A stretch of 23,821 nt of DNA, taken from positions 1 to 23,821 of IMG/VR virus record IMGVR_UViG_3300045051_000754; one strand, given 5' to 3'. The notes under the pieces were generated by a model. The model did no database searches and was not told where the DNA came from. It saw only the letters and a program-made list of their open reading frames with translations. The DNA comes from a virus. Shown one piece after another: positions 494-23,177 of the stretch (position 1 is the stretch's first letter; every line of letters starts with the position of its first letter). The position numbers and the translations under genes were made by a program.

Positions 494-1030
494 ATGAGAC
501 AGAGAAGGAAGGAACCGGAGCGAGAGCCTTCCGGGAGCGAGACACCGGACTTCGCCGCGGACATGGAGATCGACTTGGACGCGCTGGACCGGGAGTGGTG
601 GCGACAGCCTCAGCTCTACGCACGGTACGCCAGGCTCTCCGCCGGGGCGACGGCGCGGGCGAAGCGGGCGGAGGAGCGGGTGAAGCAGGTACGCTCCGAG
701 CTGATCCTCCACTTCCTCTCCGAGACCTCCTCCAAGCCTACCGACAAGATCCTGGAGGCCATGTACCGGACGCACCCGGAGCACCTGGCGGTGAAGGAGG
801 AGTGGCTGGCGGCGACGGAGGAGGCGGACGCCTACCAGCAGGCGCTCTGGGCGCTCGGGCACCGGAAGGACGCACTGGAGAACACCACGCGACTCTTCCT
901 GGCCCAGTACTTCGCCGGCTCCTCCCCGCTCCCCCACGACCTCTCGTTCATGCGGGAGCGCGTGGCGGAGGACCGGGGGGAGGCGTTCCGGGAGAAGCTG
1001 GCCGACCGCCAGGCGAGGAGGCGGACGTGA
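494..1030 (+). CDS. Hypothetical helical protein, possible UvsY-like recombination mediator
   Basis: This 178-residue protein starts at ATG 494 behind GGAGGAA. An acidic stretch (about residues 20-35) is followed by WWRQPQLYARYARL, and the rest is helical and charged (about 40-150). It ends in a motif ALENTTRLFLAQYFAG, about residues 127-142. UvsY-like mediators of T4-type phages (about 140 residues) share this layout: an acidic N-terminus, a P-x-L-x-x-x-Y motif, a long helix and a final helix before a short tail. The neighbourhood supports the idea, since a gp32-like single-strand binding protein and a RecA/UvsX-like recombinase follow. UvsY loads the recombinase onto single-stranded DNA coated by gp32. 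The similarity is only by pattern; it could be another phage helical protein. It overlaps the next gene by the GTGA junction. Confidence 0.35.
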   Translation: MRQRRKEPEREPSGSETPDFAADMEIDLDALDREWWRQPQLYARYARLSAGATARAKRAEERVKQVRSELILHFLSETSSKPTDKILEAMYRTHPEHLAVKEEWLAATEEADAYQQALWALGHRKDALENTTRLFLAQYFAGSSPLPHDLSFMRERVAEDRGEAFREKLADRQARRRT

Positions 1031-1236
1031 CCCCGGACTGGGGACGGGTAGCCTGGGCGCTCCTCGCGTTCGTCGGCCTCTTCGCCGTCGCGCCCGTCCT
1101 CCTCGGGGTCCTCGCCGGCTCCGTCGCTTACGCCGTCTACCGACAGAAGGAGACACACATCGCAAGGCTACATGCAATCATGCTCGCCGTCGGGAGGATC
1201 CGACGGCACCACGCCAAAGAGGAGGAAGCGGAATGA
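1027..1236 (+). CDS. Small single-pass membrane protein
   Basis: This 69-residue protein starts at GTG 1027, overlapping the upstream stop as GTGA, and its own stop overlaps the next ATG as ATGA. Residues about 8-34 (WALLAFVGLFAVAPVLLGVL and following) form one long hydrophobic segment. The remaining C-terminal part is basic then acidic (RIRRHHAKEEEAE), so the tail probably faces the cytoplasm. It is coupled in translation to the neighbouring recombination genes. I do not recognise a family. A membrane protein in a recombination operon might tether DNA or act on the host, but nothing in the sequence shows this. Confidence 0.6.
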   Translation: MTPDWGRVAWALLAFVGLFAVAPVLLGVLAGSVAYAVYRQKETHIARLHAIMLAVGRIRRHHAKEEEAE

Positions 1237-2597
1237 GGACGAGAGGCGGACGCGGGGGAGAGGATCGGAGGAGCGCGTGGAGGGAGACGCGCGAGGAGCA
1301 GCAGAAGGAGCGCGGCGGGGACTGGCCCGTCAAGATCCCGGAGGGGGTCGAGCTCTACAAGCGGGAGCGGAAGGGCACGGCGTACCTGAAGCTCGTCACC
1401 TATCCGCGGAAGGACGAGAACCATCCGGATCACCGGCTGGGGGACGAGATGTTCCGCCGGCCGTACTCGGTCCACAAGAACCTCGGGCCGGAGAACCGAA
1501 GCGCCGTCTGCCCGAAGGGGACGTACGGGAAGCGCTGCCCCGTGTGCGAGGAGAAGGAGCGGGCGCGGGCGCGGTACGACAGGGACGACGAGGAGGGGAA
1601 GAAGGTCATCGGGGCGCTCTCCGCCTCCAACCGGGCTCTCTACCTCTGCGTGGACGTGGAGGACGACCTAAAGAAGCTCCTCCTCCTCGACCAGCCGAAC
1701 TCGATGAGCAAGGGCCCCGGGTTCGGCCGCCTACTGGAGGACGAGATCGATGAGCAGGACGCGTCGGAGCCCTTCCCCTGGGACGAGGACGGCCCGATCC
1801 TGAAGGTCCGGTTCGGGGAGGACTCGTTCAACAAGCACGCGTTCTACCCGGCGCAGAAGGTGGACCTGGAGGACGCGGAGAAGGGGCAGCGCGTGGACTT
1901 CTCGAAGCTCGGGGAGGTCCCCTCGCTGGACGACTGCCTGAACCTCCTCTCCTACGAGGCCCTGGAGCGCCTGATGATGGGTGCGGACGAGGAGGACGAG
2001 GAGAAGCCCAAGCGAAGGGAGGAGCAGGAAGAGGAGGAGAAGCCCCGCTCCCGCCGCCAGAAGGCCGAGGAGGAGCCAGAGCCTGAGAAGCCCCGCGGCA
2101 GGTCCCGCAAGCCGGAGCCGGAACCCGAGCCGGAGCCTCCGGAGGACGAGGGGCCGGACGTGGACCGGATCAGGGAGGCCCTGGACGAGATCGCCGACGC
2201 GGACCACGACGACATCGCAGCGCTGGCGGAGGAGTTCAACGTCGAGCTGGACGCGGGCGACCTGAAGGCCAGCAAGAAGGGGGACAAGAACGCGCGGAAG
2301 TCCCTCCGGAAGGAACTCAGGGAGGCGCTGGAGGAGATGCTGGAAGGGGACGACGAGCCGGAACCGGAGCCCGAACCGGAGAAACAGAAGGCCGGTCGGA
2401 CGCGCGGGAAGGCCCCCGACCCGGAGCCGGAGAAGCCCGCCGGGAAGAAAGGGAAAGCGTCCGCGTCCACCGGGGACTGCCCCCACGGCCACGAGTTCGG
2501 GGAGGACACGGACGAGAAGCCGGAGTGCAAGAAATGCGACGTCTGGGAGCGGTGCGCGGACGAGCAGGACGCGCGGAAGGCTACCAAGAAGAAGTAA
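1233..2597 (+). CDS. gp32-like single-stranded DNA-binding protein with long acidic tail
   Basis: This 454-residue protein coats single-stranded DNA during replication and recombination. Residues H81, C93, C102 and C105 (HKNLGP, then CPKGTYGKRCPVC) form an H-x11-C-x8-C-x2-C set. It closely matches the zinc ligands of T4 gp32 (H64, C77, C87, C90). The N-terminus is basic, as expected for the cooperativity segment, and the core OB-fold spans roughly 30-250. T4 gp32 has about 300 residues; here about 200 more follow. They contain two low-complexity runs of PEPEPEPE type with basic patches, a small helical region at about 308-365, and a second Cys/His cluster (C416, H420, C432, C435, C441). Acidic tails of such proteins bind partner proteins. 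Start ATG 1233 overlaps the upstream stop and has GGAGGAA before it. Confidence 0.8.
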   Translation: MRTRGGRGGEDRRSAWRETREEQQKERGGDWPVKIPEGVELYKRERKGTAYLKLVTYPRKDENHPDHRLGDEMFRRPYSVHKNLGPENRSAVCPKGTYGKRCPVCEEKERARARYDRDDEEGKKVIGALSASNRALYLCVDVEDDLKKLLLLDQPNSMSKGPGFGRLLEDEIDEQDASEPFPWDEDGPILKVRFGEDSFNKHAFYPAQKVDLEDAEKGQRVDFSKLGEVPSLDDCLNLLSYEALERLMMGADEEDEEKPKRREEQEEEEKPRSRRQKAEEEPEPEKPRGRSRKPEPEPEPEPPEDEGPDVDRIREALDEIADADHDDIAALAEEFNVELDAGDLKASKKGDKNARKSLRKELREALEEMLEGDDEPEPEPEPEKQKAGRTRGKAPDPEPEKPAGKKGKASASTGDCPHGHEFGEDTDEKPECKKCDVWERCADEQDARKATKKK

Positions 2598-2614
2598 CCG
2601 CTGGTAGGTAGGAC

Positions 2615-2682
2615 GTGAGGGGCCGAGGGACCGTTCGAGGTCCTCTTTAGCTACGGAGCGCCGAGACGCTTCGGCCCCTCAC
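2615..2682. promoter_or_regulatory. Structured intergenic element with 12-bp outer stem and two inner hairpins
   Basis: Between the single-strand binding gene and the next gene lie 115 noncoding bases. GTGAGGGGCCGA at 2615-2626 is perfectly complementary to TCGGCCCCTCAC at 2671-2682. Inside the loop GGACC 2628-2632 pairs with GGTCC 2639-2643, and AGCG 2657-2660 with CGCT 2667-2670. Together they could form a three-way junction of 68 bases. There is no T tract after it, so it is not a standard intrinsic terminator. It could be an RNA regulating the operon, a processing site or a protein-binding DNA site. The 12-mer CGAGGTCCTCTT at 2636-2647 recurs in the gap at 4101-4112. Confidence 0.5.
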
Positions 2683-2712
2683 TCAAGCCGATCAGCCCCA
2701 CGGGAGGAAGTG

Positions 2713-2937
2713 ATGACGACGGAAGAGAGACTGCCGAGAATGCTGGTGCTCCAGGAGGCTAACGACCGGATGGAGAAGCTCGGGCTCCCGAAAAGACCGG
2801 AGATCACCCTTATCAACTGGATCCAGCGCTACCACCTCGGGCACAAGGTCGGCGGGCAGTGGGTCTTCCGGGAGGACCGCTTCGAGAAGTTCCTCCTCGG
2901 GGAGTACGAGAAGGAGGCCTCCCGTGGCGAGAACTAA
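2713..2937 (+). CDS. Small helix-turn-helix (excisionase/MerR-like) DNA-binding protein
   Basis: This 74-residue protein starts at ATG 2713, five bases after GGAGG; a GTG at 2710 is too close to that site. The sequence reads as a winged helix of the HTH_17/excisionase type. A helix LVLQEANDRMEKLG is followed by a recognition region ITLINWIQRYHLGHKV and a wing GGQWVFREDRFEKFL. Proteins of this kind bind short DNA sites and serve as excisionases, repressors or architectural factors. It overlaps the recombinase start by 14 bases. Position directly after the structured element at 2615-2682 makes that element a possible target, which is inference only. Confidence 0.6.
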   Translation: MTTEERLPRMLVLQEANDRMEKLGLPKRPEITLINWIQRYHLGHKVGGQWVFREDRFEKFLLGEYEKEASRGEN

Positions 2938-4069
2938 CGTGCCGGGGGGTCCCGCCCCCATCGCGGAGCAGGTCCGGCGGAGGTCCCGGGAGCCGGCGGA
3001 GGAGAGGAAGGAGCGGGACGAGGTCCCCTCCAGCGTGGACCCGGAGACGCTCATCCCCACGGGCTCCACCATGCTGGACCTCGCCCTCTCTGATCACGCG
3101 GAGGGCGGATACCAAATGGGGCGGATCGACCTCCTCATCGGCAACTCGGACTCCGGGAAGACCGTCCTGGCCCTGACGGAGTTCGCCGAGTGCGCGACGC
3201 GGAGGCGCTTCGACGACTACCGCTTCATCGGGGACTGGGTAGAGACGAACTCCGGGATCGACATCCCCCGCCTCCTCGGCCGGAAGGTTGCCGGGCGGAT
3301 CGAGCCCCCGCGAGAGGACGAGGACGGGGAGCCGCTCTACAGCGACACGATCCAGGACTTCCACGACAACGTGATCCGCGCCTTGGAGGACGGAAGGCCA
3401 TTCCTCTACATCGTCGACAGCGTGGACGCCCTCTCCTCCGAGGAGGAGCAGGAAAAGCTAGAGGAGCAGCGGGAAGCCCGGGAGAAGGAGAAGGAAGTCA
3501 AGGGGACCTTTGGCGGGGAGAAGCCAAAGGTGGCAGGGCAGCTCCTCCGGAACGTGAAGAAGCGGATCAGGGACTCCCGGAGCCACGTCCTCTGCATCTT
3601 CCAGACGCGGGACAATATCGGGGCCATGCCGGGACAGTCGAAGCAGCGGTACAGCGGGGGAAGGGCCTGGAAGTTCTACGCGCAACACGAGGTCTGGCTG
3701 AAGTCCGTCGGGCAGCACGTAGACAAGAAGACGCGGCTGAAGACCGGCGTGAAGTCTGAGGCCGACGTCACGAAGAACCACCTGACCGGGAAGAAGCGGA
3801 GCGCCGCGTTCGACATCTTCTACGACTACGGCGTTGACACGCTCGGCGGGGAGGTGGACTTCCTCGTGGAGGCGGGCATCATCCGGAAGGCCGGGGCATA
3901 TCTGGACCCCCGGGGGCTAGCCGGGATGGAAGAACGCCTCTACCGGGAAGACCTCATCCGTGTGATCGAGCGGGACGGGCTGGAGCGCCGCGTCCGCCGG
4001 GCCGTCCAGCAGGCGTGGCACGAGCGGGAGGAGTCCATCAAGCTGGGGCGGAAGCCCCGCTTCGAGTAG
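2924..4069 (+). CDS. RecA/UvsX-like DNA strand-exchange recombinase
   Basis: This 381-residue ATPase would form filaments on single-stranded DNA and pair it with homologous duplex. The Walker A motif GNSDSGKT is at 73-80 and the Walker B strand FLYIVDSVDAL at 160-170. The sequence before Walker A (PTGSTMLDLALSD, then GGYQMGRIDLLIG) is the usual RecA-core lead-in. Residues 170-195 are a charged linker where RecA has its L1 loop region, and LCIFQTRDNIG (about 222-232) fits the strand leading into L2. The C-terminal 100 residues are divergent. Length is close to T4 UvsX (about 390). Start GTG 2924 follows AAGGAGG and lies inside the upstream gene. With the neighbouring gp32-like protein it makes a T4-type recombination set. 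Overall RecA-superfamily assignment is secure; UvsX role is inferred. Confidence 0.82.
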   Translation: MARTNVPGGPAPIAEQVRRRSREPAEERKERDEVPSSVDPETLIPTGSTMLDLALSDHAEGGYQMGRIDLLIGNSDSGKTVLALTEFAECATRRRFDDYRFIGDWVETNSGIDIPRLLGRKVAGRIEPPREDEDGEPLYSDTIQDFHDNVIRALEDGRPFLYIVDSVDALSSEEEQEKLEEQREAREKEKEVKGTFGGEKPKVAGQLLRNVKKRIRDSRSHVLCIFQTRDNIGAMPGQSKQRYSGGRAWKFYAQHEVWLKSVGQHVDKKTRLKTGVKSEADVTKNHLTGKKRSAAFDIFYDYGVDTLGGEVDFLVEAGIIRKAGAYLDPRGLAGMEERLYREDLIRVIERDGLERRVRRAVQQAWHEREESIKLGRKPRFE

Positions 4070-4273
4070 AGCAAATCTGGGGCGAAGGGTTCACCGACAA
4101 CGAGGTCCTCTTGAGGACCGAACGCTGGAGGTGGTGGAGGCCCAGAGCCCCCGTCCTTTTCTGACACCCCCCGGCCCCGCGTCCCACACCAGTGGGGTCG
4201 TCCTAGCGGCGGGATACCGGAGTGGCGCGGTGCCGCTCGGCCGGGGGAACTTTCTCGGAAGGAGGAACGAGGC
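4070..4273. promoter_or_regulatory. 204-base noncoding stretch with several inverted repeats
   Basis: No gene is supported here. TCTGGG 4076-4081 pairs with CCCAGA 4141-4146 and encloses a perfect hairpin GGTCCTC 4104-4110 / GAGGACC 4113-4119, with GTTC/GAAC flanking it. A short TTTT run at 4157-4160 follows, so this part may end transcription after the recombinase. Downstream are hairpins CCCAC 4183-4187 / GTGGG 4192-4196 and GAGTGGC 4220-4226 / GCCGCTC 4232-4238, the latter with one G-T pair. They lie in the leader of the gene at 4274. GGAAGGAGG at 4258-4266 is the ribosome binding site of that gene. No clear promoter is seen. Confidence 0.45.
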
Positions 4274-4483
4274 ATGGAGTACGTCAGCGTCAGCGGGATC
4301 GTGAAGGCGGCGACGGCCAAGGCCGTGCTCGTGGAGGTGAACGAGGTGGACGGCTCCCCGTTCGACGGGGAGGAGGTCTGGTTTCCCCTCTCCCAGTGTG
4401 AGGACCTGGAGGGTAGCGAGAAGGGGGACGAGGTGGAGTTCGACTGCCCCGAGTGGCTCGCGGAAGAGAAGGAACTGGCGTGA
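4274..4483 (+). CDS. Small acidic beta-rich protein of unknown function
   Basis: This 69-residue protein starts at ATG 4274 behind a strong GGAAGGAGG site. It looks like a small beta barrel: strands YVSVSGIVKAA, KAVLVEVN, EVWFPLSQ and DEVEFDC alternate with turns. It then ends in a short acidic helix PEWLAEEKEL. Small phage proteins with a W-F/I-P-x-S motif and a WLAEEKGL-like end are common next to recombination genes, but I know of no assigned role. An OB or SH3-like fold is a guess from the strand pattern. It overlaps the next gene at a GTGA junction. Confidence 0.6.
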   Translation: MEYVSVSGIVKAATAKAVLVEVNEVDGSPFDGEEVWFPLSQCEDLEGSEKGDEVEFDCPEWLAEEKELA

Positions 4484-4653
4484 GGCCCCTCCGCGTGGTC
4501 CTCCGCTTCCCGTCCCTCCGGCGTCCCCGCTTCCGGCTCCCCGTTGCGTGGATGGAGCAGATCCGGGACCTCAACCGGAGCCGCGAGCCCACCCCCGAAG
4601 ACCTCCGGGCGTACGCGGAGAGGCTCTCCCCTGTTGGCCAAGCGAAGGGGTAG
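4480..4653 (+). CDS. Small arginine-rich hypothetical protein
   Basis: A 57-residue reading frame starts at GTG 4480, overlapping the upstream stop as GTGA, with AAGGAA about 6 bases before. The first 25 residues are strongly basic (MRPLRVVLRFPSLRRPRFR). The rest, EQIRDLNRSREPTPEDLRAYAERL, looks like one or two helices. The basic end might touch nucleic acid. No family is recognised. Its call rests on the coupled start, and it may be only marginally real. Confidence 0.4.
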   Translation: MRPLRVVLRFPSLRRPRFRLPVAWMEQIRDLNRSREPTPEDLRAYAERLSPVGQAKG

Positions 4654-4882
4654 CTGGAGACCCTCCCGCGCCGAGCGTCCCTCCTCCGAACCAGGGGTGG
4701 GCTGGTGCCGTCACTGCAAGGACGTGTTCATCTGGGGGCGGGAGCTAGCCGACCGGCTCTGCCCCACCTGCCGAGCCCGAAGGGAGAAGCGACGTGCCGA
4801 GGACGAACAAGCCCAGCGCCAAACCGGGGAAGGTGAAAGGGGAACAGCGGATCACGCGCTCCGCCGGGAAGGCGAAGGGTAG
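4634..4882 (+). CDS. Small zinc-ribbon protein overlapping the nuclease gene
   Basis: An 82-residue frame with the best start at TTG 4634; GGAGAGG lies about 9 bases upstream, and a GTG at 4697 is the alternative. Residues about 25-46 read CRHCKDVFIWGRELADRLCP followed by TC, a C-x2-C-x15-C-x2-C zinc ribbon. A basic, charged tail follows (ARREKRRAED). The last 89 bases overlap the start of the nuclease gene in another frame. Zinc ribbons of this size bind nucleic acid or proteins; the role here is unknown. The four cysteines argue that the frame is used, but the start is uncertain. Confidence 0.45.
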   Translation: MAKRRGSWRPSRAERPSSEPGVGWCRHCKDVFIWGRELADRLCPTCRARREKRRAEDEQAQRQTGEGERGTADHALRREGEG

Positions 4883-5216
4883 GCGCCTCCAGCAGTGGTG
4901 CTGCGAGCGGATCAGCCTCCTCCTCGATCTCCCCTGGGGGAAGGACGAAGGGATCGCCTCCCGGGAGATGGGGCAGAGCGGGACGGACGTCCGCCTGGTG
5001 GGGGAGGCCGCGCGGCGCTTCCCGTTCAGCGTCGAGTGCAAGGCACAGGAGAGCTGGAGTATCCCCGGCTGGATCGCCCAGGCGCGGGAGAACCAGGCGG
5101 AAGGGACGCGCTGGCTTCTCGTCTGCAAGCGGAACCGGGAGGAGCCCGTCGTGGTGATGGATGCTCGGGAATTCTTCCGCATGATCCGCCCACTTGTGAA
5201 GAACGGGAGGCTATAA
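4794..5216 (+). CDS. PD-(D/E)XK nuclease, Holliday junction resolvase-like
   Basis: This 140-residue protein starts at GTG 4794 behind AAGGGAG. Its basic N-terminus (about 1-31) leads into RLQQWCCERI, then a conserved block QSGTDVRL with D65 and FPFSVECKAQ with E81 and K83. This D...ExK layout is the active site of PD-(D/E)XK nucleases, which bind Mg2+ and cut phosphodiester bonds. The next part, SWSIPGWIAQARENQ followed by WLLVCKR, fits the core strand and helix seen in phage resolvase-like enzymes. In this gene block, after a recombinase, resolving branched recombination or replication intermediates is the natural role. An RNA or single-strand specific nuclease is possible. Confidence 0.65.
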   Translation: MPRTNKPSAKPGKVKGEQRITRSAGKAKGRRLQQWCCERISLLLDLPWGKDEGIASREMGQSGTDVRLVGEAARRFPFSVECKAQESWSIPGWIAQARENQAEGTRWLLVCKRNREEPVVVMDAREFFRMIRPLVKNGRL

Positions 5217-5391: not shown

Positions 5392-5480
5392 TGATCTGGA
5401 TACTTTCCGGGGCACTTGCCATGATTATCCTCTGCCTATTCATCTACGTAAAGTGGATCAAGGACTATAGCCCATGGTAG
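5391..5480 (+). CDS. Tiny single-pass membrane protein
   Basis: This 29-residue frame starts at ATG 5391, five bases after GGAGG at 5381-5385; an ATG at 5388 is too close to that site. About residues 2-20 are hydrophobic (WILSGALAMIILCLFIYV), followed by KWIKDYSPW. It would be a single transmembrane helix with a short positively charged end. Its stop overlaps the SbcC N-half start by seven bases. No function can be assigned; the good ribosome site and tight packing support that it is translated. Confidence 0.5.
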   Translation: MIWILSGALAMIILCLFIYVKWIKDYSPW

Positions 5481-6532
5481 CCTCCCTCTCCCTCTCCAAC
5501 TTCCAGTCCCACCGCAAGACCCGCCTGGAGTTCTGCGAGGGTGTCAACGCTATCGTCGGCCCCAGCGACTCCGGCAAGACGGCCCTCCTCCGCGCCCTAG
5601 CCTGGGTAGCGACGAACAAGCCCTCCGGGGACGCCTACCGCTCGAACTGGGGTGGGGACACCTCCGTCACGCTCGGGCTAATGGAGGGCGTCACCGTCGA
5701 GCGGGAGCGGACCAAGGCGGACTCCGGGACCTACCGGCTCAGTACCATGGCGGAGCCCCTGCGGCGCCTCGGCCAGGACGTGCCGGAGGAGGTCTCTCGC
5801 GCGCTGAACCTCGGGGACCTGAACGTCCAGCGCCAGCTCGACGCCCCGTTCCTCCTCAGCGAGTCCCCGGCGGAGGTGGCGCGCGTGCTCAACCGCGTCG
5901 TGCGGCTGGACGAGATCGACCGGAGCATGTCCGACGCCAACGGACGCATCCTCTCCGCAGGACGTACGCTCAAGGCGGAGGAGGCACGGGCGGAGGAGCT
6001 GGAGGCGGAGCTGGAGGGATTCGCCGGCCTGGGGGACGCGGAGACGCGGCTGGCGGCGGTTGAGGTCCTGGAGGGAAACCGCGTGCGGCTGGAGCGGGAC
6101 GCCAAGGCCCTCCGCGCGCTGGCCGAGAAAACGTCCCTGGCGGAAGGGGACCTGGAACGCCTCCCGGACGTCCGGAGGGCGGAGCAACTGGCCGCGGGGC
6201 TCTCCAGGAAGGCGGACGAGTTTCGGGACAGGCAGGAGAGCATCTCCCGACTCGGGAACCTGATCGACGGCGTCTCCCGCGCCCAGGACGAGCTGGAAGC
6301 CCTTCCTTCGACGAGAGGGGCTGAACGTCTCCTCCTACGCCTGGCAGAGCGCAAAGCGGAATTTGACGCCTTGTCGCGATCCAGGGGGGCTATCCGGTCC
6401 CTGGCGGAGAGCGCCCGGACCGCGCGGGAGTCCCTCCGGTCCCTGACCAAGCAGCTCGCCACGGAGGAAGAGGAGTTCCACCGGCTGATGCCGTCCACGT
6501 GCCCGCTCTGCGGACAGGAGGTAGAGAAGTGA
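5474..6532 (+). CDS. sbcC: SbcC/Rad50 N-terminal half: Walker A, coiled coil, terminal zinc hook
   Basis: This 352-residue protein carries the first half of an SbcC (Rad50-type) ATPase. The N-terminus SLSLSNFQSHRKTRLEF is the family's opening strand pair. The Walker A motif GPSDSGKT is at 29-36, with a Q-loop-like VQRQLDAPFLL near 118-128. From about 155 to 340 it is coiled coil. It stops just after CPLCGQEVEK (C343, C346), the zinc hook that sits in the middle of a normal SbcC chain. Signature, Walker B and H-loop are missing here and appear in the separate gene at 7982. The two must come together to make an ATP site that, with SbcD, opens and cuts DNA ends or hairpins. Confidence 0.8.
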   Translation: MVASLSLSNFQSHRKTRLEFCEGVNAIVGPSDSGKTALLRALAWVATNKPSGDAYRSNWGGDTSVTLGLMEGVTVERERTKADSGTYRLSTMAEPLRRLGQDVPEEVSRALNLGDLNVQRQLDAPFLLSESPAEVARVLNRVVRLDEIDRSMSDANGRILSAGRTLKAEEARAEELEAELEGFAGLGDAETRLAAVEVLEGNRVRLERDAKALRALAEKTSLAEGDLERLPDVRRAEQLAAGLSRKADEFRDRQESISRLGNLIDGVSRAQDELEALPSTRGAERLLLRLAERKAEFDALSRSRGAIRSLAESARTARESLRSLTKQLATEEEEFHRLMPSTCPLCGQEVEK

Positions 6533-7524
6533 GAACACGTCCCCCCGCCAAGCGACCCCCCGCCGACGCCGTGCTCTGCGCGGACGTCCACCTGCGGGAC
6601 ACCGTGCCGGAGTGCCGGACGGATGACTTCCTCGCCGCGCAGTTCCGGAAGCTCCAGGCCATCCGGGACCTCCAGGAGACGAACGGGGGCTGCCCGGTCC
6701 TGTGTGCCGGGGACGTGTTCGACCACTGGAAGCCGAGCCCCTGGCTCCTCCAGGCCGTGATCCCGCTCGTCCGGGACTGGATCGTCGTCCCGGGGCAGCA
6801 CGACCTCCCGCAGCACTCCCTGGCGCTGTTCGACAAGAGCGGCCTGGCGGTGCTGGAGCGCGCGGGGTGCTGTATAGTGCTGGAAGACCCCGTGGGTCCG
6901 ATAGCAGTCAAAGACGGGGAGGTAATCGTTTCCGGGTTTCCTTGGGGAGCAGAGCCCTCCGGAATAGCGGGGGACGAGGAGCCGTACAAACGGATTGCCC
7001 TCATCCACCGGCTCGTCTACCCCGGCAAGCCCCCGTTCCCCGGCGCGGAAAGCAAGGGAGGAACGGCGCGAGACCTGCTCCGGAAGATGAAGGGCTTCGA
7101 CCTCGTAGTGAGCGGAGATAACCACCAGACGTTCGTTCAACTTCCCGGCGGTCCTATCACTACTGCTATGAACGGCCCCCTTTCCGGGAAGAACGGGGAC
7201 CCTATCCTCGTCAACCCCGGCTCCATGATGCGGACCACCGCGGCGCAGGCGGACCACGAGCCGAGCGTCTTCCTCTGGTGGGCGGAGTCCAACACGGTCG
7301 AGCGCGTGGTCCTCCCTCACGAGAAGGGGGTGGTCAGCCGGGAACACATCGACCGGGACAAGGCGAGGGACGAGCGCATTTCCGCCTTCGTCGAGCGCCT
7401 GCGGGACGACGTGGAGATGGGGCTGGACTTCCAGGATAACCTCCGACGGTTCTTGGCGGAGAACGAGACGCCGAAGGCCGTCGAGCAACTCGTGTGGGAG
7501 ATCGTCGATGGTCGGAACGCGTGA
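6529..7524 (+). CDS. sbcD: SbcD/Mre11-like nuclease subunit
   Basis: This 331-residue calcineurin-like phosphoesterase starts at GTG 6529, overlapping the upstream stop as GTGA behind GGAGG. Metal-binding motifs are in order: D19-x-H21 in CADVHLRD, GDVFDH at 61-66, PGQHD at 88-92 (a Q where GNHD is usual), H160 in ALIHRL, and SGDNHQT at 195-201. The family's last motif is usually GHxH; here it reads GDNH. NPGSM follows at about 235. It is the Mn2+-dependent exo/endonuclease that works with SbcC to process DNA ends and hairpins; T4 gp47 is a phage relative. It lies between the two SbcC halves, which supports one complex. It is somewhat shorter than E. coli SbcD (400). Confidence 0.82.
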   Translation: MRTRPPAKRPPADAVLCADVHLRDTVPECRTDDFLAAQFRKLQAIRDLQETNGGCPVLCAGDVFDHWKPSPWLLQAVIPLVRDWIVVPGQHDLPQHSLALFDKSGLAVLERAGCCIVLEDPVGPIAVKDGEVIVSGFPWGAEPSGIAGDEEPYKRIALIHRLVYPGKPPFPGAESKGGTARDLLRKMKGFDLVVSGDNHQTFVQLPGGPITTAMNGPLSGKNGDPILVNPGSMMRTTAAQADHEPSVFLWWAESNTVERVVLPHEKGVVSREHIDRDKARDERISAFVERLRDDVEMGLDFQDNLRRFLAENETPKAVEQLVWEIVDGRNA

Positions 7525-7753
7525 GCTCGTGCTACTGGGGAGCGGGGAGATTGCCCACCTCGCGTACTTTGGGAGCCGGGAGAGGATGGAGCAGCTCCTC
7601 CCCCCAACGGAGGAAACGCCGGTGAACACTCGCTGCTCCTACTCGGGGAAGGGACACCTGGCGAACGGGAAGGCCCGGCTCTGCCGGCGCTGCTTCCCGG
7701 AACAGTACAACGCCACCGCAGCCGCGTGGAGAATGGGGAACAAGCATGGCTAG
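7508..7753 (+). CDS. Small Cys/His protein in the SbcCD block
   Basis: This 81-residue frame starts at ATG 7508 inside the end of sbcD, six bases after GGGAG. Residues C43, H50, C59 and C62 (CSYSGKGHLANGKARLCRRC) could bind one zinc. The N-terminal half has no recognisable motif; a GTG at 7622 would give only the metal-binding half. It overlaps the next gene by eight bases. Because it is trapped between sbcD and the C-terminal SbcC half, it may be an accessory to that complex, but no family is recognised. Confidence 0.5.
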   Translation: MVGTRELVLLGSGEIAHLAYFGSRERMEQLLPPTEETPVNTRCSYSGKGHLANGKARLCRRCFPEQYNATAAAWRMGNKHG

Positions 7754-7985
7754 CCAGACGGACGCGGAGAAGCTCCTGGCGCTCAAGGGGAAGATCGAGC
7801 GGATCAAGACCCAGCGCGCGCAGGCGGAGGGACGCCTGGAGGAGCTCACGGGGCAGCTCAAACGGGACCACTCCTGCGGGAGTCTGGAGGAGGCCCGGGA
7901 GAAGCTGGAGGGGATGGAAGAGCAGGCCGAGAAGCTCGCCGAGGAGATCCGGCGGGGGGTCGAGGAGTTAGAGGGGATGCTGTGA
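7746..7985 (+). CDS. Short coiled-coil protein in the SbcCD block
   Basis: This 79-residue protein starts at ATG 7746 behind GGGGAA and ends in a GTGA overlap with the next gene. It is nearly all charged heptads: EKLLALKGKIERIKTQRAQA, then EGRLEELTGQL, and EEAREKLEGMEEQAEKLAEE. A short non-helical break, DHSCGS with a single Cys, lies in the middle at about 41-46, so it probably forms a helical hairpin. It could pack against or extend the arms of the split SbcC, but it has no ATPase motif. No other function is suggested. Confidence 0.6.
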   Translation: MASQTDAEKLLALKGKIERIKTQRAQAEGRLEELTGQLKRDHSCGSLEEAREKLEGMEEQAEKLAEEIRRGVEELEGML

Positions 7986-8602
7986 CCCCCCTCACTGAGC
8001 TCCGCTCCCGCCTGGAGAACCGGAAGGGCCGGCGGGACCAGCTCCTCCAGTCCCTGGAGCAGGCCAGGGACCGAGCGCGCGACCAGCGGAGGCTCCTCCG
8101 CAACCTGGACCGCGCGCAGGCCGTCCTCCAGGTCGTCGCGCAGCGGACGCAGCAGGAGTTGGAGGTCCAGATCGGGGGGCTGGTCACCATGGCGTTGGCC
8201 GCCGTGTTCCCCGACCCCTACGAGTTCGTCCTGCGGTTCGAGCAACGGAGGGGGAAGACCGAGGCCGACCTCCTCTTCTCGCGGGACGGCTCGGAGGTCC
8301 ATCCCCTCTCCGCGTCCGGCGGGGGCGTGGTGGACCTGGCGGCGTTCGCCCTACGCGTGGCGCTCTGGCGGATCTCCTCCCCGGGGTTGCGACCGACAAT
8401 CGTGCTCGACGAACCGTTCAAGCACCTATCCGAAGACCTCCAGCCCAAAGCCAGCGCGCTCCTGAAGGAGATCAGCTCCCGCCTGGGGGTCCAGTTCATC
8501 ATGGTGACGCACTCGGAGGAGCTGGTTGAGAGCGCGGACCGGGTGTTCCAGGTGAGCCTGCGGCGGGGGGTGAGCCGGGTAACAGAGGGAGAACAAAAAT
8601 GA
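7982..8602 (+). CDS. sbcC: SbcC/Rad50 C-terminal half: signature, Walker B and H-loop
   Basis: This 206-residue protein supplies the ATPase half missing from the gene at 5474. Residues 1-60 are coiled coil. An ABC signature variant SASGGG is at 110-115 followed by VVDLAAFALRVALW. Walker B TIVLDEPF is at 139-146, a D-loop-like HLSEDLQ follows, and H177 in VTHSEEL is the H-loop. There is no Walker A. SbcC-type ATPases put the Walker A of one head opposite the signature of another, so the two proteins should associate. The coiled coil here is much shorter than in the N-half (about 60 versus 185 residues). Start GTG 7982 overlaps the upstream stop. Confidence 0.8.
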   Translation: MTPLTELRSRLENRKGRRDQLLQSLEQARDRARDQRRLLRNLDRAQAVLQVVAQRTQQELEVQIGGLVTMALAAVFPDPYEFVLRFEQRRGKTEADLLFSRDGSEVHPLSASGGGVVDLAAFALRVALWRISSPGLRPTIVLDEPFKHLSEDLQPKASALLKEISSRLGVQFIMVTHSEELVESADRVFQVSLRRGVSRVTEGEQK

Positions 8603-8931
8603 CGAACTGCGGAGAGAAGCGCGTGACTTGCGTTCTCGGGGAAATCTGCGAGAGGGTAGAGGCCAAGCGCGACGCATGGAAAGAAGCGTACGACTCTCAT
8701 GTTGGTCGTGCCACATCCCTCACTGCTGTGTTGCAAGCCGAGCGCGACCGCCTCGCGGCAGAGAACGCCCGACTCCGAGCGTCCGAAGCCTCGTGGATCG
8801 AGATTGCGGGGGATAGGGACCGGGAGCGCGACCGCCTCGCGGCAGAGAACGTCAGGCTCGCGGCGCGGGTGGAGGAGCTTGAACGGGCCATCATAGCACA
8901 CAGGGCGCCGGCCGGGACGGAGGAGACCTAG
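8599..8931 (+). CDS. Coiled-coil hypothetical protein with internal duplication
   Basis: This 110-residue protein starts at ATG 8599, overlapping the previous stop, behind AGAGGGAG. It is largely coiled coil, with ERDRLAAENARL at about 48-59 repeated as ERDRLAAENVRL 28 residues later. Two cysteines near the N-terminus (NCGEK, TCVLGEIC) add a third at 16. It is the last gene of the plus-strand arm and its codon use is less GC-rich around 8600-8720 than in its neighbours. No family is recognised; similar coiled-coil proteins are frequent in phage genomes. Confidence 0.55.
   Translation: MTNCGEKRVTCVLGEICERVEAKRDAWKEAYDSHVGRATSLTAVLQAERDRLAAENARLRASEASWIEIAGDRDRERDRLAAENVRLAARVEELERAIIAHRAPAGTEET
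8740..8851 (+). repeat. Perfect 28-base direct repeat within a coiled-coil gene
   Basis: The sequence at 8740-8767 is repeated exactly at 8824-8851; each copy begins GAGCGCGACC and ends CAGAGAACG. The offset is 84 bases, 28 codons or four heptads, so the coiled-coil phase is kept. It looks like a recent in-frame duplication. Confidence 0.85.
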
Positions 8932-18907: not shown

Positions 18908-19280
18908 GCCTCACCCCGTAGTCCGCGACCCCGAAGGAGGCGGGGAGCCGTCCCATCCGCGCCAGCCTCCCCGTGGGGTCCATCAGTAGCGCCCGCTCCC
19001 CGTAGACCGTCGTGCCGAGCCCCGACGCCGCGTTCCCCGTCTGGTAGCTCTGCGTCACGCCCCCGATCGACTCGCTCTTCACCTGCTTGTCCTTCGCGCT
19101 GACGAAGTGCGCGGCTACCCAGCGCTCGATCTCCGCCAGGAGCGCGTCCGGGAGCCCCGAGCCCCCGAGCTGCTGCGTGACGATCAGGTTCGCCCCAGTC
19201 AGGAACGGGGTCACGTCCTCGTCCTCCAGCTCCGAGTCCGGCATGATGTCCCGGACGTCCGACTCAGACACTCTGGCCAA
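18894..19280 (-). CDS. Head-tail connector (adaptor) protein, gp6-like
   Basis: This 128-residue protein has no ATG start near its N-terminus. TTG 19280 is six bases after GGAGG, the best fit; GTG 19271 is the alternative. The protein reads SESDVRDIMPDSELEDEDVT, then PFLTGANLIVTQQL. A helix LLAEIERWVAAHFVSAKDKQ follows, and then TTVYGERALLMDPTGRLA. The I-E-x-W-x-A-A-H-F and Y-G-x-x-A-x-x-L-D-x-T-G motifs are those of gp6-like adaptors, which form a ring under the portal. It overlaps the glycosyltransferase gene upstream, so the connector genes are coupled to the glycosyltransferase cassette. Confidence 0.72.
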   Translation of the reverse strand: MARVSESDVRDIMPDSELEDEDVTPFLTGANLIVTQQLGGSGLPDALLAEIERWVAAHFVSAKDKQVKSESIGGVTQSYQTGNAASGLGTTVYGERALLMDPTGRLARMGRLPASFGVADYGVRHEPS

Positions 19281-19959
19281 TTCCCGCCTCCTTCCACCAG
19301 CAACGGTCCATCCAGGGGAGGCCGGACACCTGGTGCGGCCGGGGCTTCCCGTGGAAGCAGACGACCCGCGCGTGGTCCGGCAGCTCATAGTCACACTCCG
19401 CCACCACGTGCTTCTTGTAGCTGACGATCCCGGGGACGGCGAGCGTCACGTCCTCCGGCTCCCTCCCGGCCTCCTCCGTGTACCAGCGGGCGACATACTC
19501 CTGGTCCCACGCGCCGGGGGCGATCCCGCTCCGCTCGCGGAGGTAGCGTTTGAGGAGGAAGCCCAGGTCCGCTCCCCCGTCCCAGGCCATGACGCCGGAG
19601 GCCCAGCGGTCCCGGGGGTTCGTCCTGCGGTTGAAGCCGGGGAGCATGGCGAAGCCCAGCCCGTCCGGCCGCAGGACCAGGTAGCGGACGAGCACCGTGT
19701 CCAGGTCCAGGTAGACGACGCGCTCCCCCTTGCCAGTCAGACCGGGGCGGAACGCCTCCATCTTCGACCACCAGCCAGGGAGGCCGTGTAGCAGGGGCTC
19801 CGCCCAGGGCTCCCGGAGGAGCGAGGGGTCGTCGGTCAGGCAGAGGAAGCGTCGGTCCTGCCCCGCCAGAGACCGCCCCGCGCCCGCCCGGAGCGCGCGG
19901 ACATAACGGGCGTCGTAGTCCCCGCCGAGCCGCAGGACGCAGAGGACGGTCGTCGTCAC
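19264..19959 (-). CDS. Glycosyltransferase with DxD motif (GT-A fold, GT8-like)
   Basis: This 231-residue enzyme would move a sugar from a nucleotide sugar to an acceptor. VVYLDLDTVLV at 81-91 contains the metal-binding D85-x-D87, and PGWWSKMEAFRPGL at 61-74 is the usual lead of this group. The remainder (GVMAWDGG, AWDQEYVARWY) matches the active-site aspartate region of a GT8-like or related GT-A transferase. The C-terminal VVCFHGKPRPHQ has the family's H-x-G-K/P stretch. The start is GTG 19959, overlapping the upstream stop as GTGA. It is the third of three different transferases in a row. The donor and acceptor cannot be read from the sequence. Confidence 0.75.
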   Translation of the reverse strand: MTTTVLCVLRLGGDYDARYVRALRAGAGRSLAGQDRRFLCLTDDPSLLREPWAEPLLHGLPGWWSKMEAFRPGLTGKGERVVYLDLDTVLVRYLVLRPDGLGFAMLPGFNRRTNPRDRWASGVMAWDGGADLGFLLKRYLRERSGIAPGAWDQEYVARWYTEEAGREPEDVTLAVPGIVSYKKHVVAECDYELPDHARVVCFHGKPRPHQVSGLPWMDRCWWKEAGIGQSV

Positions 19960-20732
19960 AGCGTCGCCCCCTCTCCCCGCGGGGCCTGCCCGCGCTCCCG
20001 GCACCTCCGCTCGTAGAGGTCCCTGTTCCTCGCCACCTTCTGCCGGTAGCCGCTCGCCCTCCCCGCCAGCTTGGGGTGCCACTGGTGGACCGTGCGGAGG
20101 TCGTCCCGGGGGACCACGCGGAGGCCGGACGCCAGCACGCGGTCCCGGAAGTCGTTGTCCTCGTAGGCGATCCCCCCGGCGAACGCCTCGCACATCCCCC
20201 CGAGGTCAAGGTACGCCTGCCGTGGGATGGCGTTGCAGAAGTGGTAGAGCACGTTACGCTCCTGGGAATGCTGGTACCACATCGCCCGCTTGTACCGGAA
20301 GCCCTCGGGGGAGTCCGCCCGGGTGGCTCCCTCCGCCGCCGCCTCGCACGAGCAGACCACGTAGGACTCCGGCTCCCGCTCGAACTCCGCGTCCAACCCA
20401 GCCAGGACGTCCGCCAGGTGGAAGACCTCCGGGCTGGTCAGGAGGAGGACGGACCCGCGCGCCACCTTCGCCCCGTGGTTGTACGCCCGGCACGGGTTGT
20501 ACGTGTCCGGGAAGGAGACGGGGCACCAGCTCAGGGGGACCTCGTGGGAGTGCTCCCGCAGGAGGTCGTCTAGCGCCTCCTGCGCGCCGGGGATCTTCCG
20601 GTCCTGCGGGACGTCCTCCAGGACCAGCACCTCATAGTCCCTCCGCCCCCGGTAGTGATGCGCGAGAGAGAGGAGCGTGTTGCGGAGCGCGTCCGGCCGG
20701 TGGACGTAGGGCATCAGGATCGAGTACCTCAC
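19956..20732 (-). CDS. Family 2-like glycosyltransferase
   Basis: This 258-residue enzyme starts at GTG 20732 at a GTGA junction. It opens with YSILMPYVHRPDALRNTLLS, a GT2 start, then YEVLVLEDVP. NPCRAYNHGAKVARGSVLLL at about 79-98 is the conserved N-x-G helix region. The usual DxD is replaced by TSPEV at 99-103. The acceptor-side motif GGMCEAFAGGIAYEDNDF at 178-195 includes the catalytic E191-D192. The replaced DxD is a known variation in some phage and bacterial GT2-like enzymes, which are likely active, but this is not certain here. Substrate unknown. Confidence 0.72.
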   Translation of the reverse strand: MRYSILMPYVHRPDALRNTLLSLAHHYRGRRDYEVLVLEDVPQDRKIPGAQEALDDLLREHSHEVPLSWCPVSFPDTYNPCRAYNHGAKVARGSVLLLTSPEVFHLADVLAGLDAEFEREPESYVVCSCEAAAEGATRADSPEGFRYKRAMWYQHSQERNVLYHFCNAIPRQAYLDLGGMCEAFAGGIAYEDNDFRDRVLASGLRVVPRDDLRTVHQWHPKLAGRASGYRQKVARNRDLYERRCRERGQAPRGEGATL

Positions 20733-21556: not shown

Positions 21557-22116
21557 GGGGTGAACTCCCCGTTTCGAAGGAACCCGTGGTAGCTGCCCGC
21601 CATGATCGACCCCGCCCCCGCTTGGCAGGTGGGACCGTTCTTGTCCACGGTGACGTTCGGGGGCTCCCCGTGCCGGATCCAGCAGCGGTGGATCCGGTCC
21701 TCCTTCATCGTGCAGTTGTTCGCCCGGCTGTCGATGTCCCAGTACTCCCCGTTCGGGAGGACCACGGTGAGGTGCGTCCCGTCGCAGTTGTCGTGGTAGT
21801 AACACTCCCTCGGGGCGTTCTCATCCTCGTTGTAGCGGTAGGCGGTCCGCCAGAAGAGGCAGCCAGGCTCCAGCTTCCCGCTCGGCGTGTCCCAGACCGT
21901 CGCGGGGCGCCAGAACCAGTGACCCCCGTCGAACGGCGTCCCGCAATCCGGGCAGACGTGCGTCTCCGCCACCTTGAAGCATTCGTCGTGCTGCTCCTCC
22001 GTCACCTCATACAGGACGGAGCAGTTCCCCTTCTTCGCAGAGCAGGAGCGCGGAGCCGATACCCCGGCCTCCCAGCGCTTCCCGACTTCCGTGACCAGCC
22101 GCGTCTTCAGTCCCAT
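21553..22116 (-). CDS. Conserved cysteine-rich phage protein of unknown function
   Basis: This 187-residue protein starts at ATG 22116, overlapping the radical SAM stop by one base. It has 11 cysteines. VCPDCGTPF (C55, C58) could be half of a zinc site. The central and C-terminal parts hold unusually distinctive blocks: DTPSGKLEPGCLFW, CYYHDNCDGTHLTVVLPNG, WDIDSRANNCT, HRCWIRHGEPPNVTVDKNG and SYHGFLRNG. I have seen this type in other phage and environmental sequences but know no function. Conserved H, D and N residues near C111 and C145 suggest a metal-binding active site or tight fold. It sits between radical SAM and glycosyltransferases, hinting at a shared modification task. Confidence 0.7.
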   Translation of the reverse strand: MGLKTRLVTEVGKRWEAGVSAPRSCSAKKGNCSVLYEVTEEQHDECFKVAETHVCPDCGTPFDGGHWFWRPATVWDTPSGKLEPGCLFWRTAYRYNEDENAPRECYYHDNCDGTHLTVVLPNGEYWDIDSRANNCTMKEDRIHRCWIRHGEPPNVTVDKNGPTCQAGAGSIMAGSYHGFLRNGEFTP

Positions 22117-23177
22117 CACACGAACTCCTCGTGCTCGGGCCGGGGAGCCATCAAGGCCCCCAGGACCTCGTTGTACTGCCGGTAGTAGCACCGCGCGCAG
22201 CCTCGGCCGTCCAGCGGGACGTCGCTCCCCCGCATCAGGCCCTCCAGGTCGAACGCGCTCCCGAGGCAGAGGCTCTCCGGCATCCGCTTGCTGGGGACCG
22301 AGTGCGCGTACTGAACGCCGCAGCAGGCGTACACCCGGCAGTCCGCCCCGATGACGGGCTTCAGCGCGCCGACGTAGCAGTCCCCGCCGCGGTCCGACTC
22401 CGCGCGGGCCTGGAAGATCGTCCGGGAGAGGTCCGCTCGTCCGCGCGCCCTGAGCTCGGACTCCGCCCAGAGGAGGGGGACCTCGTCCGCCACCAGGAGG
22501 TCGGGGACCAGCCGGACGTGCGTGAACCGCCAGGCGTTGGCGAACCCCACGACGCGCTCGATCTCATCCAGGTTCGGATCCGTCCCGACCACGTGGGAGA
22601 AGGCCCAGTCCACGCTGGGATGCTCCTGTATGACCTTGGCGTACCGCTCTGCCGTCGCGTCTGTGAACTCCCGGAAGTCCCCGTTTGAGATCCGGCACCA
22701 CGTCAGCCGGTCGAGGGACTCCGGCGGGGCCTTGTGGAGGAGCGTCCCGTTCGTCACCAGGCCGACCTTGATCCGGCTCGCCCAGAAGGCATCCACGATG
22801 CACCCGATCTGCGGGTGCATCAGCGGGTCCCCTCCACCCGTGATCGACACCGCCCTGGCCCCGAGCCGCGCTAGGTCCCCGACGATCCGGAGCGCGTCGC
22901 CCAGGTCCATCTCCACGTCCCGGTCCTCCTCCGCGCAGGAGCAGAACGGACAAGAGAGATTACAGCGGTTCGTCGGCACGAACTGGGGATGGATCGGGAG
23001 TATCCGTCGCGTCTTGGTGACCCCCCGGAGGTTCCCCCAGTCCCGGAGGAACTTCGCGGGAAGCGAGTTCGCCGACGTGTAGCTTGCCTGGAGGCTCACG
23101 AGTCCCAGGAGGCCGTCCGGACGACGCTCCTCCTCTTCCGGCCAGTCCCGAAGGTCCACGTCTCCAATGGCACTCAT
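22116..23177 (-). CDS. Radical SAM protein with SPASM-like C-terminal cysteines
   Basis: This 353-residue enzyme starts at ATG 23177 behind AAGGAGGGG. CNLSCPFC at 72-79 is the CxxxCxxC set (C72, C76, C79) holding the 4Fe-4S cluster that splits S-adenosylmethionine. SITGGGDPLMHP at 111-122 is the GGE-like SAM-binding stretch. VGLVTNGTLLH near 145 is the next core strand. The C-terminus has a cysteine-rich region (CYVGALKPVIG, then CRVYACCGVQ and GCARCYY) like SPASM domains, which bind auxiliary clusters. Such enzymes modify peptides, sugars, or RNA. In this place, before glycosyltransferases and connector genes, a modification of virion protein or of a sugar is likely, but its substrate cannot be read. 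A YfkB/MoaA-like member is possible. Confidence 0.82.
   Translation of the reverse strand: MSAIGDVDLRDWPEEEERRPDGLLGLVSLQASYTSANSLPAKFLRDWGNLRGVTKTRRILPIHPQFVPTNRCNLSCPFCSCAEEDRDVEMDLGDALRIVGDLARLGARAVSITGGGDPLMHPQIGCIVDAFWASRIKVGLVTNGTLLHKAPPESLDRLTWCRISNGDFREFTDATAERYAKVIQEHPSVDWAFSHVVGTDPNLDEIERVVGFANAWRFTHVRLVPDLLVADEVPLLWAESELRARGRADLSRTIFQARAESDRGGDCYVGALKPVIGADCRVYACCGVQYAHSVPSKRMPESLCLGSAFDLEGLMRGSDVPLDGRGCARCYYRQYNEVLGALMAPRPEHEEFV

Follow-up and report, generated by a model that had tools for sequence, protein, structure and literature searches.

Results

Organization of the locus

Is a Rad50/SbcC chain that is encoded in two genes, cut at its zinc hook and with sbcD between the pieces, a damaged gene or a form, in its own right, of the DNA-break repair complex Mre11-Rad50 (SbcCD), whose arm protein is normally a single long chain? 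The question is raised by the virus record IMGVR_UViG_3300045051_000754, which in its entirety (23,821 bases) makes up the window analysed here. A sequence-only reading of this window had claimed that SbcC is split at the hook, that the hook thereby lies at a free C-terminus, that the two coils are unequal (about 185 and 60 residues) and that two extra small proteins lie between the halves. The five open reading frames (ORFs) concerned, 5474-6532, 6499-7524, 7508-7753, 7746-7985 and 7982-8602, were all confirmed at the coordinates first noted, and are given below with their neighbours and internal features.

2924..4069, plus strand: UvsX/RecA-like recombinase, upstream and in the same recombination block as the split module
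5474..6532, plus strand: Rad50/SbcC N-half, 352 aa; N-lobe with Walker A (GPSDSGKT) and Q-loop, arm, zinc hook
N-half residues 145-338: four-helix arm (AlphaFold)
6500..6511, plus strand: codons of the hook motif CPLC, N-half residues 343-346 (translation; position calculated from the start of the ORF)
6529..7524, plus strand: SbcD/Mre11 nuclease, likely extent; frame open from GTG 6499
7508..7753, plus strand: Cys/His ORF, 81 aa; weak S14-like zinc motif
7746..7985, plus strand: coiled-coil protein (cc), 79 aa; probable helical hairpin
7982..8602, plus strand: Rad50/SbcC C-half, 206 aa; short coil, SGGG signature, Walker B (VLDEP), H-loop (MVTHS)
8599..8931, plus strand: coiled-coil ORF, 110 aa; 4-nt overlap with the C-half end

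The C-terminus of the N-half reads ...STCPLCGQEVEK, with the stop six residues past the zinc-hook CPLC. Because AGGAGGT lies just upstream of GTG 6529, and because the GTGA there overlaps the stop of the N-half by 4 nt, we prefer 6529 over 6499 as the start of sbcD. The ORFs at 7508-7753, 7746-7985 and 7982-8602 overlap by a few bases, resembling a translationally coupled operon. A frame joining the halves was looked for and does not exist; a complete sbcD and two small genes separate them. Upstream, a T4-like recombination set occupies window positions 494-5216, with UvsY-like (494-1030), gp32-like (1233-2597) and RusA/PDDEXK-like (4794-5216) proteins in addition to the UvsX/RecA-like recombinase (2924-4069). 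The minus strand carries a glycosyltransferase-like protein (19264-20193; PHROG 1962) and a QueE-like radical SAM protein (22116-23177).

Both halves match one Rad50, and SbcD matches Mre11

The N-half matches the Rad50-type AAA_23 family of Pfam (score of 56 bits, the cut-off being 27) and PHROG 16465 'exonuclease' (4e-43), and the C-half matches PHROG 15167 'ATPase' (1e-33) as well as the Rad50 C-lobe. No NCBIfam model scored above its cut-off for any of the four proteins, nor for those relatives from Bacillota and phages that were tested. For both halves, profile searches give the same best solved structure, Rad50 of M. jannaschii (3aux; E-values of 4.6e-15 for the N-half and 4.5e-16 for the C-half), the tail of the N profile matches the solved Rad50 zinc-hook domains 1l8d, 6zff and 5gox, the top structural matches of the AlphaFold model of the N-half are Rad50 heads, and SbcD matches Mre11 structures. 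From these profile and structure matches, to 3aux by both halves, to zinc hooks by the N tail and to Mre11 by SbcD, it follows that the locus is a Rad50/SbcC cut at the hook, together with its nuclease.

The motifs of the halves are complementary: Walker A and the Q-loop are present in the N-half only, and the signature, Walker B and H-loop in the C-half only. Among aligned N-halves G29, G34, K35 and Q121 (Walker A, Q-loop) are invariant; in the C-half alignment D143, E144 and P145 are invariant and H177 is nearly so. The signature is present as SGGG, and both it and the D-loop deviate from those of canonical Rad50. SbcD keeps the metal-binding phosphoesterase residues D29, H31, D72, H101, H170 and H209. 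In the phage clade, that is the SbcD of the window (6529-7524) and those of the aligned phage loci, most sequences read GQHD and GDNH where Mre11 has GNHD and GHxH; the canonical Mre11 metal motifs are retained in SbcD of phage vB_BboS-125 and of the Bacillota members. An altered use of metal by the phage-clade SbcD is possible. We stress that, with a noncanonical signature and D-loop and with GQHD and GDNH in the phage SbcD, neither ATPase nor nuclease activity can be taken for granted. At the C-terminus of SbcD, where a Rad50-binding helix-loop-helix would be expected, the alignment has a conserved, helical-looking tail; the match to Mre11 structures stops before it.

An arm that seems to lack a return strand

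In the AlphaFold model of the N-half (mean pLDDT of 81), the N-lobe is followed by helices at residues 145-182, 186-228, 231-275 and 282-338, and then by the hook. The longer Caloramator N-half is modelled with helices at 147-194, 197-250, 258-295, 298-342 and 345-454, a hook at 457-460 and, after it, a short stub helix. The coil of the C-half, judged by its alignment with Rad50 of M. jannaschii, spans only about 45 residues, so that the coils are indeed unequal.

Profile self-alignment, which replaced a simple helix-break predictor too crude for unit counting, resolves the arm into tandem helical units, each about 47 residues long; additional registers occur near 92 and 146. The distance from P-loop to hook clusters near 263, 315, 365-385, 425-430 and 477 residues, sequence relatedness having been only partly removed. 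We infer that the arm lengthens by whole units, in variable number; whether the helices run in line or fold back cannot be read from the models.

Among phages the distance from P-loop to hook ranges from about 257 to 390 residues, yet cc stays near 82 aa and the length of the C-half is unchanged (Spearman correlations with arm length of -0.08 and 0.06, respectively). Since neither cc nor the C-half grows with the phage arm, we conclude that the coil lacks its return strand. In Bacillota the C-half is slightly longer where the arm is longer (0.58), but this gain is far below that of the arm.

The hook is kept at the free end. Its cysteines, C343 and C346, are invariant in all 24 aligned N-half relatives, whose chains end 3 to 30 residues past the motif, and, of 144 distinct N ORFs, 134 have a CxxC no more than 40 residues from their C-terminal end (80 of 85 from phages, 54 of 59 from genomes). 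Microbacterium phage Magritte, in which the halves are diverged and far apart, has an N-half without CxxC.

The split is conserved in phages, with a constant fourth gene

The sequence-only reading had judged that a complex of four or five parts with an open hook would be unusual, while being unsure of the spread of the split. Searches showed the split to be conserved in phages and in Bacillota chromosomes, and it is far more widespread and older than that reading could have known. A C-half search returned 27 viral loci, nearly all with separate genes for the N-half (N), SbcD (D), a coiled-coil protein of about 80 aa (cc) and the C-half (C), in that order. A wider viral profile scan gave 414 relatives, of which the best 80 were kept; the order N-D-cc-C is found in 91 phage loci, and a UvsX/RecA-like gene is nearby in 50 of 105, as in the window. 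An intact SbcC gene was looked for and found in no related locus, nor did any related phage or cellular locus contain a fused N+C ORF: wherever both halves occur, they are two genes. An apparent N+cc fusion in one locus (L044) proved to be a coiled-coil cross-match of 18 bits.

In Bacillus phage vB_BboS-125 the split halves are gp32 and gp35; gp34 resembles cc, and an SbcD that lacks annotation lies downstream. SbcC goes unmentioned in the paper on this genome (PMC6375668). An AP2-domain gene (L030:5017-5589) lies there between the N-half and the remaining genes. In one other contig the C-half occupies two frames (L015:5968-6603), probably through sequencing error or recent decay.

The two small proteins between the halves fare differently. 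By profile, cc is present in 26 of the 27 first-round C-half loci and, by position and size, in the 27th; relatives of about 75-100 aa occur in nearly every locus, and they stay with D-N where C is unlinked. Conservation thus shows the 79-aa cc to be a genuine, constant fourth part of the module, its membership of a complex being inferred. Its cysteine is not conserved, and the alignment suggests that the protein is probably a helical hairpin. No relative of the Cys/His ORF at 7508 was found beyond this phage itself, of which a near-identical contig also has it, and we reject it as a fifth subunit. The ORF at 8599 has no relatives in the first-round loci and is unsupported as a member of the module.

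The split module in Bacillota

A profile scan of a genome collection gave 270 relatives, the best 80 of which, mostly from Bacillota, were kept. The split is present in 57 cellular loci, 50 with the order D-N-cc-C and 7 with N-D-cc-C. Eight genomes first showed C only; whole-genome searches found D-N-cc elsewhere in each, and the notion of orphan C genes was dropped. Some Clostridia thus have C apart from D-N-cc, which fits the reading as four parts and shows that linkage is not required. Matches in a Listeria contig were discarded as well, the protein there being an intact one of 1186 aa.

In Alkalihalophilus pseudofirmus OF4 the block D-N-cc-C lies between recA and rny-ymdB. The same neighbours, recA-[D-N-cc-C]-rny-ymdB, recur in most Bacillota loci, and in the Clostridia with C apart, C still precedes rny-ymdB. 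The Bacillota site is a core chromosomal place and not a prophage.

From an evenly drawn sample of 121 Bacilli and 118 Clostridia, in which intact SbcC was scored by TIGR00618 at an E-value of 1e-15 or better, intact SbcC was found in 1 of 24 genomes with a split C-half versus 140 of 215 without (Fisher p = 3.6e-9). No correction for shared ancestry was made in this test, and at the thresholds used neither form is found in many Clostridia. With kinship thus uncorrected, it is likely that the split module substitutes for intact SbcCD in most genomes where it occurs.

In a maximum-likelihood tree of the C-lobe, the 44 split sequences form one clade (SH-aLRT of 99), whose nearest intact neighbours are archaeal Rad50; bacterial SbcC and T4 gp46 fall apart from it. 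This deep placement is tentative owing to long branches. The four-gene form is probably ancient, and standard in many phages and a set of Bacillota.

Discussion

A proposed four-subunit Mre11-Rad50

We hypothesize that the locus encodes a four-subunit Mre11-Rad50 (SbcCD) with a Rad50 chain that is always made in two pieces, parted at the zinc hook. We regard this as likely, while stressing that the complex itself, its binding of zinc and its ATPase and nuclease activities are inferred, no complex having been modelled. Where a complex of four or five parts had been proposed from sequence alone, the four-part module is supported and the five-part one is not; that the parts form a single complex is still an inference.

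In the mechanism that we propose, an N- and a C-half would pair into one rebuilt Rad50 head, the short coil of the C-half packing against the first helix of the arm. A head rebuilt from two chains is feasible, since crystals of Rad50 heads have been obtained with the N and C segments produced separately. Two such heads would close on ATP, and SbcD, at the base of the coil, would cut DNA ends. The tips of the two arms would be joined by a Zn(Cys)4 site to which each contributes its free C-terminus; without a return strand, the outer arm may fold on itself or pair with a second N-half. The 79-aa cc, constant in size whatever the arm length, may bind a constant part, for example the head base or the hook. 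The complex would hand processed ends to RecA/UvsX, and would replace intact SbcCD in most carrier genomes.

A bolder reading, towards which we lean without pressing it, is that this is a distinct, as yet unnamed four-subunit class of Mre11-Rad50, with a repeat-unit arm that lacks a return strand, a free zinc half-hook, a head separable into N and C and an arm length set by whole units, which part of the Bacillota use as their standing SbcCD, encoded beside recA, and have in common with phages.

Alternative explanations

The alternative that survives best, though we consider it unlikely, is that cc and the C-half coil are a detached return strand (coil B), the arm being an ordinary Rad50 coiled coil in pieces. 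In its favour, cc is a coiled coil, is always encoded beside the halves and precedes the C-half where coil B would be expected. Against it, the lengths of cc and the C-half do not track that of the phage arm, the Bacillota C-half gains far less than the arm, and the cc alignment suggests a hairpin.

It is also conceivable, though we hold it very unlikely, that N and C are two separate ABC-type proteins (RecF/RecN/SMC-like) with different partners rather than one Rad50 head. Weak RecN and SMC matches, the divergent signature and the fact that C can be unlinked from N speak for this; the complementary motifs, the shared best match to one Rad50, the constant presence of SbcD and the hook on N speak against it.

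Decay, or a sequencing or assembly error, of an intact sbcC has nothing but the odd architecture to support it and is practically ruled out by the complete sbcD between the halves, the starts and stops overlapping by a few bases, the invariant catalytic residues and the recurrence of the architecture in about 150 loci, including finished chromosomes and unrelated contigs.

Significance and comparison with known systems

Models of Mre11-Rad50 and SMC proteins assume that the chain extends along one coil, reverses at the hook or hinge and returns. A conserved natural form that ends at the hook tests the need for a return strand and for a covalent linkage of the lobes, and offers a small, dissectable complex that allows either lobe, the arm and the hook to be expressed on their own. 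The module also suggests who performs the work of SbcCD in Bacillota without SbcC, and our analysis gives a name to genes now spread in annotation among 'exonuclease', 'ATPase' and 'hypothetical protein'.

One of the nearest known systems is archaeal Rad50-Mre11 (M. jannaschii, P. furiosus): both head lobes and the hook match by profile, it supplies the nearest intact neighbours in the tree, and there are crystal structures of Rad50 heads made up of two separate chains (1f2t, 1ii8 and 3qkr, chains A and B). Archaeal Rad50 is nevertheless a single chain with two long paired coils, whereas the split module encodes Rad50 in two genes, lacks the return strand, carries the hook on a free C-terminus and adds a small subunit. 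Bacterial SbcCD (E. coli, B. subtilis) is of the same enzyme class and presumed role, and is nearly mutually exclusive with the module in the sampled Bacilli and Clostridia; its intact SbcC, however, is of about 1000 aa or more and lies outside the split clade. T4 gp46/gp47 is likewise a phage Mre11-Rad50 beside recombination and replication genes, with the small genes 46.1 and 46.2 between 47 and 46, but gp46 is one chain of about 560 aa with both lobes. In vB_BboS-125 the same split is annotated as exonuclease and ATPase (gp32 and gp35; PHROG 16465 and 15167), although the order there is N-cc-C-D, with the AP2-domain gene between.

The inverse arrangement, a Mre11-Rad50 fusion, has already been described (PMC3175470). 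A review of jumbo phages reports SbcC and SbcD to be near universal and describes split polymerases, with no split SbcC in its text (PMC7824862), and we found no description of a split SbcC/Rad50 in the open-access literature searched, which leaves out most subscription papers and all preprints. Within that literature, the parts of the module are of known kinds, and what appears to be new is a Rad50 cut at the hook and accompanied by a constant fourth subunit, in a recA-rny locus.
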